A stretch of 64,000 bases of DNA, from contig JALHNJ010000001.1 in NCBI GenBank assembly GCA_022843585.1, positions 992,001 to 1,056,000 on the forward strand. Direction: 5' to 3'. This DNA comes from Chitinophagaceae bacterium. Lineage in GTDB: Bacteria > Bacteroidota > Bacteroidia > Chitinophagales > Chitinophagaceae. This document shows, one piece after another, positions 738 to 49,031 of this stretch. Position numbers and translations under genes: made by a program. The stretch's first letter is position 1, and the number at the start of each line of letters is the position of its first letter. Below the pieces are notes generated by a model. The model made no database searches. It saw only the letters and a list, made by a program, of their open reading frames with translations, and was not told the origin of the DNA.

Positions 738-772
738 GAGTCAGGAGTCTTTAGTCGGGAGTCATGAGTCGT
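738..772 (+). repeat. Five-unit heptamer array (KAGTCNN) right after the tonB stop
   Basis: Five contiguous 7-nt units with invariant AGTC at positions 2-5 of each unit. The first unit starts at the base after the TGA stop. Perfect 7-nt phasing is directly visible. The same family recurs at the prs stop codon (25649-25683). Confidence 0.85.
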
Positions 773-780
773 AAGACAGG

Positions 781-13723: not shown

Positions 13724-14554
13724 TTGGGAAAAATCAGTAATTGCTTATGTGTGATTGCATTGCTGGCAGGTATTACAGCCTCCGGCCAAACACTACGCCG
13801 TCCTATTGCCGCCAGTTACACAGGTCTTGGTGCATACAGTGTTAATCATGCAGATGTTTTTTCTTTTACAGCTAATCAGGCATCGCTGGCCCAATTAAAA
13901 AATACTGCGGTTGGAGTGTATGGAGAAAGAAGGTTTTTATTAGCCGAGCTAAATAGTTATACCGCTGCTGCTGCTGTTACAACCAGCTCTGGCAATTTCG
14001 GTTTAAAAGCAATGTATTCCGGGTTTAGTGATTATAATGAAACACAAATAGGATTGGCCTATGGAAGAAAATTGGGAAAGAAAGTAGACATCGGGGCACA
14101 GTTTAATTATAATGGAATAAGCGTTGCTGGTTATGGCAATGCGACCGCTATTAGTTTTGAATTGGGAACCATATTACATATTACAGACAGGCTACATGCA
14201 GGTGTACATGTAAACAACCCGGTTGGAGGAAAATTTGGGAAAACACAGGAAGAGAAATTGTCATCGGTTTACACTGCCGGGTTTGGATATGAAGCATCGG
14301 AGAAATTTTTCGTCAGTATTGAATTGCAAAAAGAAGAAGATCAGCCAATCAACGTAAATGCAGGGATGCAGTATAAATTTATTCCGCAACTATTGGCAAG
14401 AGTGGGAGTATCATCCGCCACTTCTTCGGGTTGGATCGGAATAGGTTTAATGCTTCAATCCTTTCGGTTGGATATAACCACCAGTTACCATCAGCAATTA
14501 GGTGTTACTCCCGGCCTATTACTGATTTATAATTTTAATGGCAATAAAAATTGA
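13724..14554 (+). CDS. Outer-membrane beta-barrel protein (PorV/UPF0164-like)
   Basis: 276 residues from a TTG start. An ATG at 13720 is out of frame and stops after six codons. Signal peptide of about 20 residues ends ITASGQ. The rest is alternating-residue amphipathic strands rich in Gly, Tyr and Phe (TAAAAVTTSSGNFGLKAMYS, GIGLMLQSFRLDITT), ending YNFNGNK, which reads as a 12-14-strand barrel. No catalytic motif. The stop overlaps the start of the next gene (TTGA), implying translational coupling and a joint role. Similarity to PorV/PorQ-type barrels is impressionistic; function unknown. Confidence 0.75.
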   Translation: MGKISNCLCVIALLAGITASGQTLRRPIAASYTGLGAYSVNHADVFSFTANQASLAQLKNTAVGVYGERRFLLAELNSYTAAAAVTTSSGNFGLKAMYSGFSDYNETQIGLAYGRKLGKKVDIGAQFNYNGISVAGYGNATAISFELGTILHITDRLHAGVHVNNPVGGKFGKTQEEKLSSVYTAGFGYEASEKFFVSIELQKEEDQPINVNAGMQYKFIPQLLARVGVSSATSSGWIGIGLMLQSFRLDITTSYHQQLGVTPGLLLIYNFNGNKN

Positions 14555-22795: not shown

Positions 22796-23104
22796 ATGAC
22801 AGAGCAACAACCTAACCAGTTAAATATCGAAATTTCAGAAGAAGTAGCAGAAGGTGCTTATGCTAACCTTGCCATTATTACCCACTCCCATGCAGAGTTT
22901 GTAATTGACTTTGTAAATGTGATGCCCGGCACACCCAAGAGTAAAGTAAAATCAAGAATAATTTTAACTCCACAACATGCCAAACGTTTTATGAAAGCTA
23001 TGACGGAGAACATACACAAGTATGAAGCTATTAACGGTACTATTAAAGACCTGGAAGAAATAGAATTGCCTATGAATTTTGGAGGACCAACGGCGCAAGC
23101 TTAA
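22796..23104 (+). CDS. DUF3467 family protein
   Basis: 102 residues, ATG start. A compact beta-rich protein with the family core EGAYANLAIITHSHAEFVIDFVNVMPG and the later RIILTPQHAKRFMKAMTENI. No signal peptide, so cytoplasmic. DUF3467 proteins are widespread in Bacteroidota and some archaea, with no established function. A possible -7 box TAGTTTCG (22772-22779) lies 16 nt before the ATG. The stop TAA is followed one base later by a heptamer array. The next gene, on the other strand, is the four-helix-bundle gene. Confidence 0.88.
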   Translation: MTEQQPNQLNIEISEEVAEGAYANLAIITHSHAEFVIDFVNVMPGTPKSKVKSRIILTPQHAKRFMKAMTENIHKYEAINGTIKDLEEIELPMNFGGPTAQA

Positions 23105-23105
23105 A

Positions 23106-23140
23106 CAGTTCTAAGTTCGGAGTTCTTAGTTCGAAGTTTG
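23106..23140 (+). repeat. Five-unit heptamer array (NAGTTYK) after the DUF3467 stop
   Basis: Five contiguous 7-nt units, each with AGTT at positions 2-5. Bases 23119-23142 pair in inverted orientation with 23581-23604 (20 of 24 positions identical), so the array forms one flank of the four-helix gene. Confidence 0.85.
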
Positions 23141-23158
23141 ATGGACTCCGTATTTATT

Positions 23159-23582: not shown

Positions 23583-23610
23583 CGAACTATGAACTTAGAA
23601 CTCCAAACTC
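23583..23610 (-). repeat. Four-unit heptamer array (NAGTTYN) overlapping the radC stop
   Basis: On the minus strand, four contiguous heptamers start with GAGTTTG, whose GA is part of the radC stop TGA (23611-23609). Inverted relative to the array at 23106-23140. Confidence 0.85.
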
Positions 23611-24301
23611 AAAGAATCCCTTCATCCGCAAAACTGTAATAGCCATCTTCGCTTACTATCAAATGGTCGAGTACGGTTATATCAAGAAAGAGGGCGGCCT
23701 GTTTTATTTTTTGAGTGAGTTGTTCATCGGCCTTGCTGGGTTTTAAACTGCCGGATGGGTGATTGTGGCAAAGAATAATATTAACAGCATCTTCTTCTAA
23801 TGCCTTTCGGAGAATTATTCTGGGATCAGCTACCGTGCCTGTAATACCACCTTCACTGATGACTTCAAAGTGATTGATCTTATTAGCCCTGTTTAAAAAG
23901 AGTACAGCAAACACTTCGTGCCGATAGTCTTTTAGTTTGGCCTGTAAAAAATCAGCGATATCGTTGCTTGAACTAACCATCGGCTTATGCATGATCTCAC
24001 CGGCCTGCCTTCTTCTGCCTAATTCCAACGCCGCAACAATGGTAATGGCTTTTGCTTCGCCAATGCCCTTTATTTTCATCAGTTCTTTTATAGAAAGTTT
24101 GCCTAATTCTGCAAGGCTGTCTTTTCCGAGTTTCATTACTTCTTTGGCTACATCTACGGCAGATTTTTGCCGGGTTCCGTTGTGTATAAGGATGGCCAGT
24201 AACTCCGAATTGCTGAGGTTTTCTGCACCGGTAGCGAGTAGTTTTTCTCTTGGCCTGTCGTCTTTTGACCATTCTTTAATTGAGTACTTGTGCTCTTGCA
24301 T
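23609..24301 (-). CDS. radC: RadC-family JAB/MPN-domain protein
   Basis: 230 residues from ATG at 24301, giving the usual start QEHKYSIKEWSKDDRPREKL. A longer reading from TTG at 24373 adds 24 unconserved residues and would cover a hairpin (TACCAC/GTGGTA, 24337-24351). An N-terminal helix-hairpin-helix UPF0758 domain (IKGIGEAKAITIVAALELGRR) precedes the JAB domain. The metal site is HNHPSG, with a later Asp in SKADEQLT. Once called a DNA-repair protein, but its biochemical role is not settled. Its stop codon overlaps a heptamer array. Confidence 0.93.
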   Translation of the reverse strand: MQEHKYSIKEWSKDDRPREKLLATGAENLSNSELLAILIHNGTRQKSAVDVAKEVMKLGKDSLAELGKLSIKELMKIKGIGEAKAITIVAALELGRRRQAGEIMHKPMVSSSNDIADFLQAKLKDYRHEVFAVLFLNRANKINHFEVISEGGITGTVADPRIILRKALEEDAVNIILCHNHPSGSLKPSKADEQLTQKIKQAALFLDITVLDHLIVSEDGYYSFADEGIL

Positions 24302-24410
24302 TTGGCCAATGTAACCAATAAATTTGTTCCAGTCAATACCACTTTGTGGTACAGATACAGACCATCCAAACAAATATCCGCCCTATTGAAAAACACTAAA
24401 ATCTGATAAG

Positions 24411-24703: not shown

Positions 24704-25651
24704 ATGCAATCCGCAAAAATTTTCTCGGGAACTGGTTCTCAGCAATTAGCCGAACAAATTTGTAAACGATACGGTACCAGGTTAGGTAAAGTAAACATCC
24801 AACGATTCAGTGATGGTGAGATTTCTCCCATCTTCCTTGAAAGCGTAAGGGGTGATTATGTTTTTCTGGTGCAAAGCACCTTTTCGCCTGCTGAAAACCT
24901 GATGGAGTTACTCCTGATGATCGACGCTGCCAGGAGAGCCTCCGCTTACAAAGTAATCGCTGTTTTACCCTATTATGGATATGCCCGCCAGGACAGAAAG
25001 GACAGGCCACGGGTGGCTATAGGAAGTAAACTGGTAGCCAATATGTTAGTAGCTGCCGGGGCAGACCGGGTAATTACCATGGATCTGCATGCCCCGCAGA
25101 TTCAGGGCTATTTCGACATCCCGGTTGACCATTTGGATAGTCATGCTGTTTTTATCCCTTACATAGAGAATTTAAAGCTCGAAAACCTTACCTTTGCCGC
25201 CCCCGATGTGGGAGCAACAAACCGCATCAGGGAAATTGCCAGTTATTTTAATGCAGAAATGGTGATCTGTGATAAGCACCGTAAAAGGGCTAACGAGATT
25301 GCCAGCATGGTGGTAATAGGAGATGTGACGGATAGAGATGTGGTGATTATTGATGACATCTGCGACACTGGGGGAACACTGGCAAAAAGTGCAGGTCTTT
25401 TAAAAGAAAAAGGAGCAAGAAGTGTAAGGGCGTTGATTACACACCCGGTATTGAGCGGTAAAGCATACGAAAATATTGAAAACAGTGTGTTAGAAGAATT
25501 GATCGTTTGTGATACAATACCAGTGAAGAGAGAAACGGAGAAGATAAAAGTGCTGAGTGTAGCCGAACTTTTTGCAGTAGCTATTAGAAATGCGTATGAG
25601 AATAAGAGTATAACTAGTCTCTTTATTCATTCGCAAAGAAGAGATAAATAG
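24704..25651 (+). CDS. prs: Ribose-phosphate pyrophosphokinase (PRPP synthetase)
   Basis: Makes PRPP from ribose-5-phosphate and ATP for nucleotide, His and Trp synthesis. 315 residues. Motifs: FSDGEISPIFLESVRG near the N-terminus, the ATP-binding YYGYARQDRKDRPR, DLHAPQIQGYFDIPVDHL, and the PRPP loop VVIIDDICDTGGTL. The ATG lies about 20 nt after a near-consensus -7 box (TATCTTCG). The stop TAG is itself the first three bases of a heptamer array. Upstream of rplY and pth on the same strand, a common order in Bacteroidota. Confidence 0.97.
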   Translation: MQSAKIFSGTGSQQLAEQICKRYGTRLGKVNIQRFSDGEISPIFLESVRGDYVFLVQSTFSPAENLMELLLMIDAARRASAYKVIAVLPYYGYARQDRKDRPRVAIGSKLVANMLVAAGADRVITMDLHAPQIQGYFDIPVDHLDSHAVFIPYIENLKLENLTFAAPDVGATNRIREIASYFNAEMVICDKHRKRANEIASMVVIGDVTDRDVVIIDDICDTGGTLAKSAGLLKEKGARSVRALITHPVLSGKAYENIENSVLEELIVCDTIPVKRETEKIKVLSVAELFAVAIRNAYENKSITSLFIHSQRRDK

Positions 25652-25683
25652 TCCGTAGTCGTTAGTTAGGAGTTGTGAGTCGG
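25649..25683 (+). repeat. Five-unit heptamer array (KAGTYNN) that includes the prs stop codon
   Basis: Five contiguous 7-nt units. TAG of the first unit is the prs stop; TAG at 25656 and 25663 put stops in the other two frames. Same family as the array after tonB. Confidence 0.88.
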
Positions 25684-25764: not shown

Positions 25765-26415
25765 ATGAAATCAATTACAATCGAAGGACAACTGAGGACC
25801 GGATTCGGCAAAGGCGCCACCCGACAACTCCGCTCTCAGGAACTGGTGCCCGGTGTAATTTATGGCGGCTCTGCAGAGATCAGCTTTCATGCTCCTGCAA
25901 AAGCTTTCAAAAATTTAGTGTACACCCCGAGTTTCCAGATCGCTGAAGTAAAATTAGATGGCAAAACTTACAGAACTATTCTGAAGGATTTGCAGTTTGA
26001 CAAAGTGGATGACAAATTGATCCACGTAGACCTGCTGGAACTGGTAGACGATAAAAAAGTGATTGCTGATATCCCATTGAAGTTTGTAGGAACTTCTAAG
26101 GGAGTAAAAGACGGTGGTAAGTTAATTACCAAAATGAAATCACTGAAAGTAAAAACATTACCTAAGTACCTGAAAGAGCAAATTGAAGTTAGCATTGACA
26201 ATTTGGAGTTGAATGGTAACATCAGAGTTGAAGATGTAAAATTGGACAACTACGAAATTCTTAATTCACCTCGTATTCCAATTGCATCTGTAGTATTAAC
26301 AAGACAGTTGAAACAAGAGGAAGCTGCTGCAACACCTGCTGCTGCTAAGCCTGCTGCCGGAGCTGCTGCTCCAGCCGCTGCTGCTGCGCCTGCAAAAGCT
26401 GCTGCCAAGAAGTAA
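25765..26415 (+). CDS. rplY: 50S ribosomal protein L25, long CTC form
   Basis: Binds 5S rRNA in the large subunit. 216 residues against about 94 for the E. coli form. An N-terminal L25 domain (FGKGATRQLRSQELVPGVIYGG) is joined to the C-terminal TL5/CTC beta-domain (IPLKFVGTSKGVKDGGKL), then an Ala/Pro/Lys-rich low-complexity tail of about 30 residues (codons GCT/GCC/GCA). Ends 23 nt before a very strong terminator. Confidence 0.95.
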   Translation: MKSITIEGQLRTGFGKGATRQLRSQELVPGVIYGGSAEISFHAPAKAFKNLVYTPSFQIAEVKLDGKTYRTILKDLQFDKVDDKLIHVDLLELVDDKKVIADIPLKFVGTSKGVKDGGKLITKMKSLKVKTLPKYLKEQIEVSIDNLELNGNIRVEDVKLDNYEILNSPRIPIASVVLTRQLKQEEAAATPAAAKPAAGAAAPAAAAAPAKAAAKK

Positions 26416-40794: not shown

Positions 40795-41514
40795 ATGAAA
40801 AAATTTTTTACCCTTTTATTAAGCTCACTGTTCTCACTTTCTCTTCTTGCCTTCGATGGAAATCGATTAAGCGTTGCCACCGTTGCTAACGGAATGAACC
40901 TATCAATTGAAATTGATGGCAGAAAGTTTAAGATGCAAGACAACAGTATTACCCTCAGTAATCTTTCTGAAGGCAGCCATAACATCCGTATTTACCGGGA
41001 TAAAAAGAAGAATGGTAACGGCTTCGGTTTTGGCCAGGCAAAAAAACAAGAGATCATTTATGCCAGCAATGTTTACCTGAAAAGAGGTTTTCATACTGAT
41101 ATAACTGTAAACCGCTTTGGCAAAGTATTGGTAGATGAAAGAAGAATTACCAACAACGAAAGCGATGAATGGTTTGAAGATGAAGACATCTATGATGATG
41201 GAAGTTGGGACAATGGTTATAGCAATGTAATGACTGCCCGTGATTTTGAATCTGTAAAAGAACAAATTCGCAAAGAGTGGTTTGAAAGCAGTCGTTTGGT
41301 TTCCGTTAAAACAATCATCAGTAAAAACAACTTTACTACTCAGCAGGTAAAAGAAATGATGTTGCTTTTCACTTTTGAGAACAACAGATTAGAAGTGGCA
41401 AAAGCTGCTTACCGCAGAACAGTTGATAAGCAACGCTACTTCGAATTGAATGATGCGTTTACTTTTAGCAGTAGCAGAGATGAGTTGGCCCGTTTTATCC
41501 GTGAATCGAGATAG
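40795..41514 (+). CDS. Secreted DUF4476-domain protein
   Basis: 239 residues. Signal peptide of about 19 residues (LLSSLFSLSLLAF). An N-terminal beta-domain (MNLSIEIDGRKFKMQDNSI, NIRIYRDKK) is followed by an acidic linker (EDEDIYDDGSWDN) and the C-terminal DUF4476 helical domain at about 145-239 (FESVKEQIRKEWFESSRL, VKEMMLLFTFENNRLEVAK). The family is found almost only in Bacteroidota and its function is unknown. The stop TAG is the first three bases of a heptamer array; a good terminator follows. Confidence 0.88.
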   Translation: MKKFFTLLLSSLFSLSLLAFDGNRLSVATVANGMNLSIEIDGRKFKMQDNSITLSNLSEGSHNIRIYRDKKKNGNGFGFGQAKKQEIIYASNVYLKRGFHTDITVNRFGKVLVDERRITNNESDEWFEDEDIYDDGSWDNGYSNVMTARDFESVKEQIRKEWFESSRLVSVKTIISKNNFTTQQVKEMMLLFTFENNRLEVAKAAYRRTVDKQRYFELNDAFTFSSSRDELARFIRESR

Positions 41515-41539
41515 TCAATAGTGAAAAGTGAATGGTGAA
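41512..41539 (+). repeat. Four-unit heptamer array (NRGTSAA) including the DUF4476 stop codon
   Basis: Starts TAGTCAA, TAGTGAA; TAG of the first unit is the stop. TGA or TAG trinucleotides at 41519, 41529 and 41536 cover all three frames. Confidence 0.88.
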
Positions 41540-41596: not shown

Positions 41597-41634
41597 GTTT
41601 ATGTTGTGACTTATACATTCAGCGAATGTATTTA

Positions 41635-41662
41635 TTGACTATTCACTACTGACAATTCACTT
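41635..41662 (-). repeat. Four-unit heptamer array overlapping the sucD stop
   Basis: Minus strand units AAGTGAA, then TTGTCAG and TAG-type units, contiguous. AAG is the last codon of sucD and TGA its stop. Inverted relative to the array at 41512-41539; together they bracket the terminator. Confidence 0.85.
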
Positions 41663-42532
41663 TCCTATCACTTCTGCCATCTTCTTTCCAATATCAGCAG
41701 GACTACTTACTACATGAATGCCACATTCCGCCATAATCTTCATTTTAGCAGCAGCAGTATCATCAGCACCTCCTACAATTGCTCCGGCATGTCCCATACG
41801 GCGACCGGGAGGTGCAGTTTGACCGGCTATAAATCCTACCACCGGTTTTTTATTTCCCGTTGCTTTTATCCAGTTGGCTGCTTCCGCTTCCATACCACCA
41901 CCAATTTCGCCAATCATGACTATGGCATCCGTTTCGGGATCATTCATAAATAACTCAACTGCTTCTTTGGTTGGTGTGCCAATAATTGGGTCACCACCAA
42001 TACCAATGGCTGTAGAAATACCTAAACCAGCTTTTGCTACCTGGTCGGCTGCTTCGTAGGTTAATGTTCCCGACTTTGAAACGATACCAATACGACCGGG
42101 TTTAAAAATAAAGCCGGGCATAATGCCAACTTTACATTCATCAGAAGTGATGATGCCCGGACAATTTGGTCCTATTAGTCTTGTATCCTTTCCCTGTAAA
42201 TAATTTTTCACCTTCACCATATCCTGTACCGGAATACCTTCAGTAATACAGACTACTAAAGCAACACCTGCATCAGCAGCTTCCATAATCGCATCTGCGG
42301 CAAATGCAGGCGGAACGAAAATGATGCTTACATCTGCCCCGGTAGCTTTTACACAATCCACCACTGTATTAAATATAGGTCTCTCCAAATGGGTGCCGCC
42401 ACCTTTTCCCGGGGTAACACCACCCACTACGTTTGTTCCATACTCGATCATTTGAGTAGCATGGAATGTACCTTCTGTACCTGTAAAACCTTGTACTAAA
42501 ATCTTCGAATTTTTATTAACGAGAATACTCAT
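41657..42532 (-). CDS. sucD: Succinyl-CoA synthetase alpha subunit
   Basis: Substrate-level phosphorylation step of the TCA cycle. 291 residues. CoA-binding N-terminal fold ([23 protein letters not shown]), conserved GPNCPGII, and the phosphorylated His in [13 protein letters not shown]. The beta subunit sucC is not in this window, so the two are unlinked, as in many Bacteroidota. A TATTTTTG box (42555-42562) lies 22 nt before the ATG. The stop lies in a heptamer array shared with the convergent DUF4476 gene. Confidence 0.96.
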
Positions 42533-44259: not shown

Positions 44260-44269
44260 CAGTATGAAA

Positions 44270-44308
44270 AGAGAAAAGCCATTAGCGATTAACTATTGGC
44301 CTTTCTCT
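44270..44308 (-). terminator. maeB terminator built from an ATT-heptamer array
   Basis: 16-nt arms pair at 14 positions (AGAGAAAAGCCATTAG with CTATTGGCCTTTCTCT) around a 7-nt loop. T-rich sequence follows on the minus strand. Bases 44275-44302 also read as 7-nt units (ATTAGCG, ATTAACT, ATTGGCC within them). Confidence 0.75.
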
Positions 44309-48483: not shown

Positions 48484-48942
48484 TTATGGATTGATCTCAT
48501 CATCAATTCCTTTGCCCGACTTCACTTCAATCACATCTTTCATAATAAAAACTCCCTTTGGAAAATAGGTATTCAATCGTCTTTGGAAAGCTTCTGCATC
48601 TTTGCGGTCTTTAAAATTGCCGGCTTTTACTTTAAAATAAGGCGACTGGTACCACATGTATGCTTTCAGGTCGGGGAAATAAGTATAGATTTTAGTTTTT
48701 GCAGCCAATGCTTCATCCCGGTTATTAGTGCTGATAATCATTAAGCGATAACCTTTATCCGTTCTTCTTCCGTCCCGGCTGGTTTCTTCGTTGATCTGTG
48801 CTTGTTTTTTTACCAATAATTCAAGCCGGGGATCTTTATGCACAATAACTGTGTTGCTGTCTATAGGAGTCGAAGCGGTATCCTTTTGTGCAAAACAATT
48901 CGTTGTAATGCCGAAAATTGCGAGTGTAATAATGAATTTCAT
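48484..48942 (-). CDS. Secreted SPOR-domain protein
   Basis: 152 residues from ATG 48942 (KFIITLAIFGITTNCFAQ, a good signal peptide); an in-frame upstream start would place ten polar residues ahead of it and overlap the leader. The C-terminal SPOR fold at about 75-145 (YRLMIISTNNRDEALAAKTKI, SPYFKVKAGNFKDRKDAEAFQRRL) binds denuded peptidoglycan glycans in known members. Probably a septum-associated periplasmic protein. A TATTTTTG box lies 27 nt before the ATG. Confidence 0.87.
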   Translation of the reverse strand: MKFIITLAIFGITTNCFAQKDTASTPIDSNTVIVHKDPRLELLVKKQAQINEETSRDGRRTDKGYRLMIISTNNRDEALAAKTKIYTYFPDLKAYMWYQSPYFKVKAGNFKDRKDAEAFQRRLNTYFPKGVFIMKDVIEVKSGKGIDDEINP

Positions 48943-48969
48943 ATGTCGTATAAGGTTCAAAAATCCTAC

Positions 48970-48977
48970 CAAAAATA
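48970..48977 (-). promoter_or_regulatory. -7 box of the SPOR-domain gene
   Basis: TATTTTTG on the minus strand, exact TAnnTTTG. Confidence 0.45.
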
Positions 48978-48980
48978 AGT

Positions 48981-49031
48981 TAGTTTATAGTTCATTGTTT
49001 GCAGTTTTTTGTTATTTAAAACAAAGAACTG
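48981..49031. repeat. Heptamer array folding back into a hairpin
   Basis: 48981-49015 is five + strand units of the type NWGTTNN. On the minus strand 49031-49018 gives two more (CAGTTCT, TTGTTTT). The two arms pair over 12 bp with one G-U (49002-49013 with 49020-49031). It lies after the truncated ALDH gene and may terminate the deoC operon, though no U-run follows. Confidence 0.65.

Follow-up and report, generated by a model that had tools for sequence, protein, structure and literature searches.

Why should a tandem array of seven-base units begin exactly on the stop codon of prs? In the window, by which we mean the whole 64-kb stretch of DNA analysed here (C1:992001-1056000), prs (24704-25651, plus strand; a 315-residue ORF with ribose-phosphate pyrophosphokinase domains) ends with a TAG (25649-25651) that is also the first three bases of an array on the same strand (25649-25683). 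The array consists of five KAGTYNN units, TAGTCCG, TAGTCGT, TAGTTAG, GAGTTGT and GAGTCGG, and TAG recurs at +7 and +14, so that stops occur in all three frames. The array is real, with its all-frame TAG, as the preliminary description of this locus had reported. Its units are too dissimilar for it to enter the Tandem Repeats Finder list at score 30, and its lag-7 score is only 7.4, the (arbitrary) cut-off for the sets of period-7 arrays of contig C1 used below being 9. A gap of 113 nt, in which by eye no inverted partner of the array was seen, separates prs from the gene for a ribosomal protein L25 of the TL5 type (25765-26415, plus strand; an ORF with a domain match). The best relatives of prs (80 loci kept) come mostly from Chitinophagaceae records.

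Is prs a singular case? The same design had been noticed at six or more gene ends, with different unit families, and period-7 arrays indeed occupy six stop ends of the window, as part of a genome-wide element. Besides prs, an AGTY array (738-775, plus strand) directly follows the TGA of a TonB_C gene (102-737), and an AGTT array (23107-23141, plus strand) starts 2 nt beyond the TAA that ends a DUF3467 gene (22796-23104); both were detected by Tandem Repeats Finder and by the four-unit KAGTY pattern. Another AGTT array (23584-23613, minus strand), detected by its lag-7 score and the four-unit pattern, occupies the stop end of a minus-strand RadC-like gene (23609-24373). The remaining two face each other as a convergent pair: the left arm (41511-41539, plus strand) is of the RGTGAAT type and spans the TAG of a DUF4476 gene (40795-41514), and its partner (41633-41672, minus strand), a weak period-7 array with a Tandem Repeats Finder score of 31, spans the stop of a minus-strand succinyl-CoA ligase-like gene (41657-42532). 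Tandem Repeats Finder (score 30) listed period 7 at 738, 23107, 41511 and 41633, and also at 14170 and 60877, both inside ORFs. The four-unit pattern, with up to 3 mismatches, matched 12 times in the window vs an average of 0.18 and a maximum of 2 over 100 shuffles, and Rfam returned zero matches in the 64-kb window at gathering scores. Arrays are also present away from stops: an AGTT array (48981-49013, plus strand) with no tie to a stop runs outward from the start edge of a minus-strand SPOR-domain gene (48484-48972), and a period-7 array found by its lag-7 score on C1 sits mid-gap (44266-44297).

We then extended the analysis to C1, which holds 1,589,592 of the 4,485,540 bases (35%) of the genome of the window, G000, and on which a simple coding-score ORF script of our own called 1323 genes. 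Autocorrelation at 7 nt in the 45 nt after stops, a test set beforehand, revealed a clear excess: after 771 C1 stops, lag 7 reached z 6.9 and lag 14 z 6.1, followed by lag 4 with z 4.6, whereas the excess was absent from the middle of 419 long C1 gaps (lag 7 z -1.5, lag 14 z -0.2). Before 991 C1 starts, lag 7 (z 5.7) and lag 14 (z 4.2) were accompanied by equally high values at lags 4 and 6 (6.5 and 6.4), so that the start signal is less specific. Neither of the two outcomes that would have spoken against the element, no excess of period 7 after stops or arrays just as common away from gene ends, was thus observed. Among C1 intergenic segments, 21 scored at least 12 at lag 7 and 13 at its harmonic, lag 14, and each other lag from 4 to 15 gave 1 to 4. 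As in heptanucleotide simple sequence repeats, a seven-base unit on C1 is thus above chance and stands out over other periods. The unit tails are diverse, with 57 different ones among 215 units, the commonest being CGGG (26/215). As for location, 31 of 43 AGTY arrays in C1 gaps lie within 15 nt of a gene edge, vs 22.3 expected at random. Across 39 genomes of the genus, four-unit matches number 0 to 230 per genome. A phylum-wide four-unit scan, matching 213 of 395 genomes, is nonspecific, the reversed control being equally common in many of them; G001, which is within the genus, gave 20 matches vs 21 for the reversed control. As a separate observation, 13 of the 16 genus genomes of 1.5 to 2.1 Mb were without a four-unit match, and larger genomes had up to 230, some none. 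We propose that degenerate heptanucleotide repeats, with an AGTY core at a spacing of 7, may form a large, fast-turning population in the non-coding gaps of this Chitinophagaceae lineage, and that arrays would be tolerated, or made, at the very edges of genes.

Do these arrays have an orientation? On C1, outward AGTY arrays of at least three units were counted at stop edges in 26 of 863 cases and at start edges in 10 of 1057, and the inward orientation only in 5 and 2; reversed-motif controls, also with at least three units, gave 1 and 0, 0 and 2 at C1 edges. Two-unit arrays display a weaker polarity (38 vs 17 at stops, 23 vs 10 at starts), and arrays prefer stop edges over start edges 3.2-fold (p 0.001). 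Whether the nearest gene edge is a stop or a start, the AGTY strand nearly always leads away from it in the 5'-3' direction, and since it does so at both edges, paired arrays converge. Counted per C1 gap, AGTY arrays are 19 on the left and 2 on the right, and RACT arrays 18 on the right and 3 on the left. Nine C1 gaps carry an RGTB-type arm on the left and a VACY-type arm on the right, the opposite order occurring in none. When period-7 arrays of any unit are taken, the outward strand on C1 has more G than C in 45 of 59, including 23 of 24 of the AGTY types, and the polarity of the non-AGTY families of C1 is not significant (22 to 13 of 35, p 0.18). At p<=0.01, 15 of 56 C1 period-7 arrays (a count that takes both arms of some gaps) share their gap with an inverted partner, and 0 of 56 with a direct one.

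The convergent layout was recovered without gene calls. In the genus, 14 of 42 genomes have convergent pairs of triple units (124 matches, summed over strands and overlapping registers) and 0 of 42 have divergent ones; in the class, the figures are 24 of 149 genomes (208 matches) vs 2 of 149 (7 matches), the first unit of the pair patterns being fixed as AGTC in the genus scan and AGTT in the class scan. Reversed controls of the class scan also match (27 matches in ten genomes for the convergent pattern, 26 in four genomes for the divergent one), and other heptamer motifs therefore form pairs as well. In our proposal, the AGTY strand would run 5'-3' away from whichever gene edge an array touches, and occupancy of both edges would yield an imperfect inverted repeat. 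Two conceivable sources of the polarity were discarded: an annotation artefact, in which opposite arrays would be hidden in ORF C-termini, fits 0 of the 13 arrays in called genes (3 of the 13 are at gene ends, all sense), and Shine-Dalgarno avoidance is countered by start-less convergent gaps, which keep the polarity (4 and 4 outward, 0 inverse). Separately, two AGTY arrays, sense at +247 and antisense at +310, apparently share one called C1 gene of 1146 nt; either the reading frame harbours a heptamer palindrome or the gene was miscalled. Near-perfect palindromes are numerous in the class relatives G484 and G517, where their spacers differ but their arms follow a single dialect (AGTTATA/AGTTATG).

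If arrays occupy both kinds of edges, is the stop codon of prs their anchor or their by-product? The preliminary description regarded the array as anchored on the stop, raised the question of a unit phase locked to it, and proposed an all-frame translational backstop, a signal for 3'-end processing or termination, or the trace of slippage or insertion. Stop usage is shifted at array ends: the 26 stops comprise TAG 10, TGA 9 and TAA 7, vs TAG 143, TGA 125 and TAA 595 among all 863 (p 1.6e-5). Moreover, two of the seven registers put a TAG or TGA at the stop position, and 15 of the 26 stop-end arrays use them, vs an expected 2/7 (p 0.002; the two registers were picked after seeing the data), whereas 11 do not. 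A partial register excess thus stands, and strict locking does not, with 11 of 26 outside these registers and three phases at prs itself. Indeed, three orthologous prs arrays begin in phases 0, 1 and 5 behind TAG, TAA and TAA, which speaks against anchoring on the stop codon: G050, 94% identical over the prs region, has a TAA stop and an array that is 6 nt shorter in the alignment, and G048, 91% identical, has a TAA stop and an array in the third phase. In 10 correctly read genomes, the prs array was found in G000 and G050 and in none of the other eight; this comparison began with 22 genomes, 12 of which were dropped for wrong orientation or lack of the downstream gene, and the G048 array comes from a separate comparison, outside the set of 10. 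The prs loci of G008 and several further genomes are array-less.

An all-frame backstop anchored on the stop codon agrees with the TAG in three frames at prs and with the enrichment of TAG and TGA at array ends, but 8 of 26 array ends, vs 184 of 770 others, have a stop in each of the two other frames within 33 nt (p 0.48), neither phase nor stop codon is kept at the prs orthologues, and start edges carry such arrays too (10 of 1057, outward). We consider it very unlikely. As far as tested, the arrays do not look like a special stop-codon device. It is more likely that the array accounts for the stop than that the stop accounts for the array: the stop codon would be a by-product, an array that reaches the last codons supplying the gene's stop because its outward strand often carries TAG or TGA. 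The data establish the period of 7, the location at edges, the polarity, the inverted pairs, the presence or absence of arrays between species, the shifted stop usage and the loose phase; such capture is our inference. At the six comparable stop edges with at least three units, out of 221 edges examined between G048 and G000, protein length differs by 0 or 1 residue. Our best explanation, to which we give an even chance, is that the prs array is one of a population of outward-pointing heptanucleotide repeats that captures stop codons.

How stable are these arrays? Of 300 C1 gaps tried against G048, 69 were unmappable, and the other 231 carry arrays in both species in 5 cases, in G000 only in 19, in G048 only in 4 (one of them doubtful, owing to a mapping oddity) and in neither in 203. 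This turnover depends on the threshold, laxer limits giving some period-7 signal in both species at 12 gaps. Gap length, G000 minus G048, differs by a median of +22 nt where the array is in G000 only, +11 nt where it is in G048 only, and 0 in the rest. G048 keeps the array of the TonB_C gene of the window (738-775) with a single-nucleotide difference; by eye, a heptamer hairpin fills the gap at C1:1042028 in G048 alone. Presence and absence between species, counts of four-unit matches that vary from 0 to 230 among genus genomes, and the convergent ends could all be expected of a mobile element, MITE- or REP-like, with arrays as its inverted ends. The spacers between arms, however, are unrelated by eye and variable in length, G000 and G048 hold different heptamer families in the divergent gap C1:873753 (by eye), and many arrays are without a detected partner, which makes such an element an improbable source.

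Replication slippage might be the engine of a fast-turning repeat population, as the heptamer literature suggests, but our own test of it was negative. Inside the arrays shared with G048 (12 places), 1 of 22 alignment gaps measures 7 nt, between relatives that are ~85% identical and in which unit-length steps may be overwritten; the shared arrays of G000 and G048 thus do not show the whole-unit length changes of simple sequence repeats. Identical neighbouring units on C1 number 4 of 63 vs 2.3 expected (p 0.18), and 18 of 147 vs 5.0 expected in a pool that mixes genomes with different unit dialects. Furthermore, slippage accounts for neither the AGTY core nor the polarity.

Could the arrays act in RNA instead? 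Convergent arms might form transcript hairpins that terminate or protect mRNA at its 3' end, in keeping with the preference for stop edges (26/863 vs 10/1057) and with inverted partners at 15 of 56 arrays vs direct partners at 0 of 56. For eleven hand-picked paired loci, predicted folding is also more stable than in shuffled sequences, with z from -2.1 to -7.7 on the sense strand and from -0.1 to -5.4 on the antisense strand, and at C1:1201958 a terminator-like hairpin with a T run stands in G048 at the place of the G000 heptamer palindrome (by eye). Against this, start edges and divergent gaps have arrays too, the array of prs seems to stand alone, and the arm mismatches of nine co-directional loci are devoid of G-U bias (13 G-U, 12 A-C, 36 transversions). 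The variable positions of paired arms agree at 0.444 vs 0.376 for other loci (p 0.03), in 30 hand-picked palindromes from which entries longer than 80 letters were omitted and which were shuffled across genomes, so that this p is generous. With no G-U bias and arms barely more alike than chance, we rejected a pairing constraint at the RNA level; arm pairing is loose and probably follows from the polarity. An RNA 3'-end element, proposed from sequence, would thus be an unlikely explanation. We favour outward-pointing repeats that would capture stops.

Heptamer repeats are known in other bacteria, among them the STRR heptamers of cyanobacteria. An excess of heptanucleotide repeats, with the idea of polymerase slippage, goes back to Mrazek et al. 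2007 (as related in PMC4679880 and PMC4692102), and heptamer-derived satellites occur in bacteria (PMC6749651). With these and with STRR repeats, for which slippage was proposed, our arrays share an over-represented period 7, but polarity and coincidence with stops, both seen here, do not appear in the accounts compared. The preliminary description knew of no precedent, and this has to be revised: in the sections compared, Rehm et al. 2015 (PMC4692102), who also mention Calothrix, reported GGGAATC or GGGANTN heptamers in Xanthomonas and GGGGA(C/T)T in Nostoc, and gave a layout at stop and start edges, often with convergent pairs. The Xanthomonas heptamers are within 50 bp of a stop on the coding strand, overlapping stops included, or, on the non-coding strand, no more than 50 bp upstream of a start, lie nearer the 5' neighbouring ORF whatever its orientation, and form convergent inverted pairs, 70 and 75 in two Xanthomonas (PMC4692102). 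Compared with these GGGNATC-type repeats, the arrays described here likewise have a seven-base unit with fixed and free positions, are intergenic, follow the sense strand near stops and the antisense strand near starts (26/863 and 10/1057 vs 5 and 2), and are paired convergently on C1, in the genus and in the class. They differ in their AGTY core, the unit GGGANTN being found only in a minority (CGGG tail, 26/215), in the phylum, and in conservation, 5 of 24 G000 arrays being also in G048 at the threshold of this analysis vs 83% in Xanthomonas, according to the text compared.

Rehm et al. (2015, PMC4692102) proposed that the Xanthomonas GGGAATC heptamers form G-quadruplexes. For our arrays, a G-quadruplex-forming regulatory repeat would accord with the shared layout and with the commonest tail, CGGG, which yields GGGAGTC and fits the published GGGANTN, at least in the sections compared. 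Yet none of the 21 C1 arrays with at least four consecutive units has four G3 tracts, another departure from the Rehm repeats as far as their description was compared, and 9 are without any GGG. The G-quadruplex reading is thus ruled out for C1, and as a general explanation we find it highly improbable. Since it fails on C1 while the layout holds, the layout needs another cause.

The second precedent is the TAACTGA repeat, found in Beggiatoaceae, cyanobacteria and five Bacteroidetes (MacGregor 2015, PMC4679880). In a Beggiatoaceae genome these repeats lie mostly just before starts, the Flexibacter set is located just after stops in reverse orientation, a Microcystis sample is mixed (6 forward to a start, 8 reverse, 8 between stops), and indels of the repeat between two Cyanothece occur mostly in 7-nt increments (PMC4679880). 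Like our arrays, TAACTGA repeats are heptamers, and their reverse complement, (AGTTATC)n, fits AGTYNNN. By deduction from the published positions compared, the forward copies before starts and the reverse Flexibacter set would obey the outward rule. By contrast, one invariant unit, mostly before starts, is described there, and degenerate units, more of them after stops, are found here: the core fits TAACTGA, but the tails diverge from it (57 tails among 215 units). Among the matches listed from the open-licence PMC literature, there was no account of AGTY arrays in Chitinophagaceae. We conclude that the AGTY arrays are a form of a repeat type known from other bacteria.

What process could impose such a polarity? 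Telomere-like addition of repeats to 3' ends at broken DNA would predict exactly this, the AGTY strand entering the gap 5'-3' from both sides, and bacterial enzymes that make tandem-repeat DNA exist (DRT10, PMC12632851). However, the reverse transcriptase domain PF00078 was not found in G000, nor in the array-rich genomes G033, G010, G012 and G004 (G012 and G004 being incomplete), and Ku is encoded in 2 of 42 genus genomes, G000 not among them. PF00078 occurs in 6 of 42 genus genomes, including G039, the richest in arrays. The distribution of RT and Ku does not match that of the arrays, so that telomere-like or end-joining origins were rejected, and repeat addition of this kind seems to us only remotely probable.

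Some gaps that host arrays may also contain other repeats. An interspersed repeat of ~70-100 nt with core GAAGAGTGCGACGCAAC, unrelated to heptamers, is found at 35 places on C1, 34 of them intergenic, for example at C1:857767-857956 and C1:832586-832756. In these two gaps, both the GAAGAGTGCGACGCAAC-core repeat and the heptamer array are absent from G048. The G048 orthologs of C1:857767 and C1:882384 (within L198-L217) have a similar TAATGCCCC...CCCCTAAAGGG stretch from the stop onward, where the G000 counterparts of these gene ends carry heptamer arrays; the stretch is perhaps another repeat favouring the same gene ends.

Beyond this lineage, a single polarity law may span phyla, a generalization that we put forward tentatively and hold to be doubtful: it would cover AGTYNNN in Bacteroidia, GGGAATC in Xanthomonas and AGTTATC, that is TAACTGA, in Beggiatoaceae. 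An equally tentative wording is that the AGT- or G-rich strand runs 5'-3' away from the nearest edge, be it a stop or a start, for any unit and without G-quadruplex capacity. This orientation rule links the GGGAATC and TAACTGA literatures, which strand polarity does not connect in the texts compared. Taken together, our results remove a tempting false lead, the stop-codon device, and leave in its place an orientation rule that can be tested. If true, the polarity law could have its source in neither the direction of transcription nor that of translation, and would indicate a process at the DNA level that builds seven-base repeats from the borders between coding and non-coding DNA inwards.
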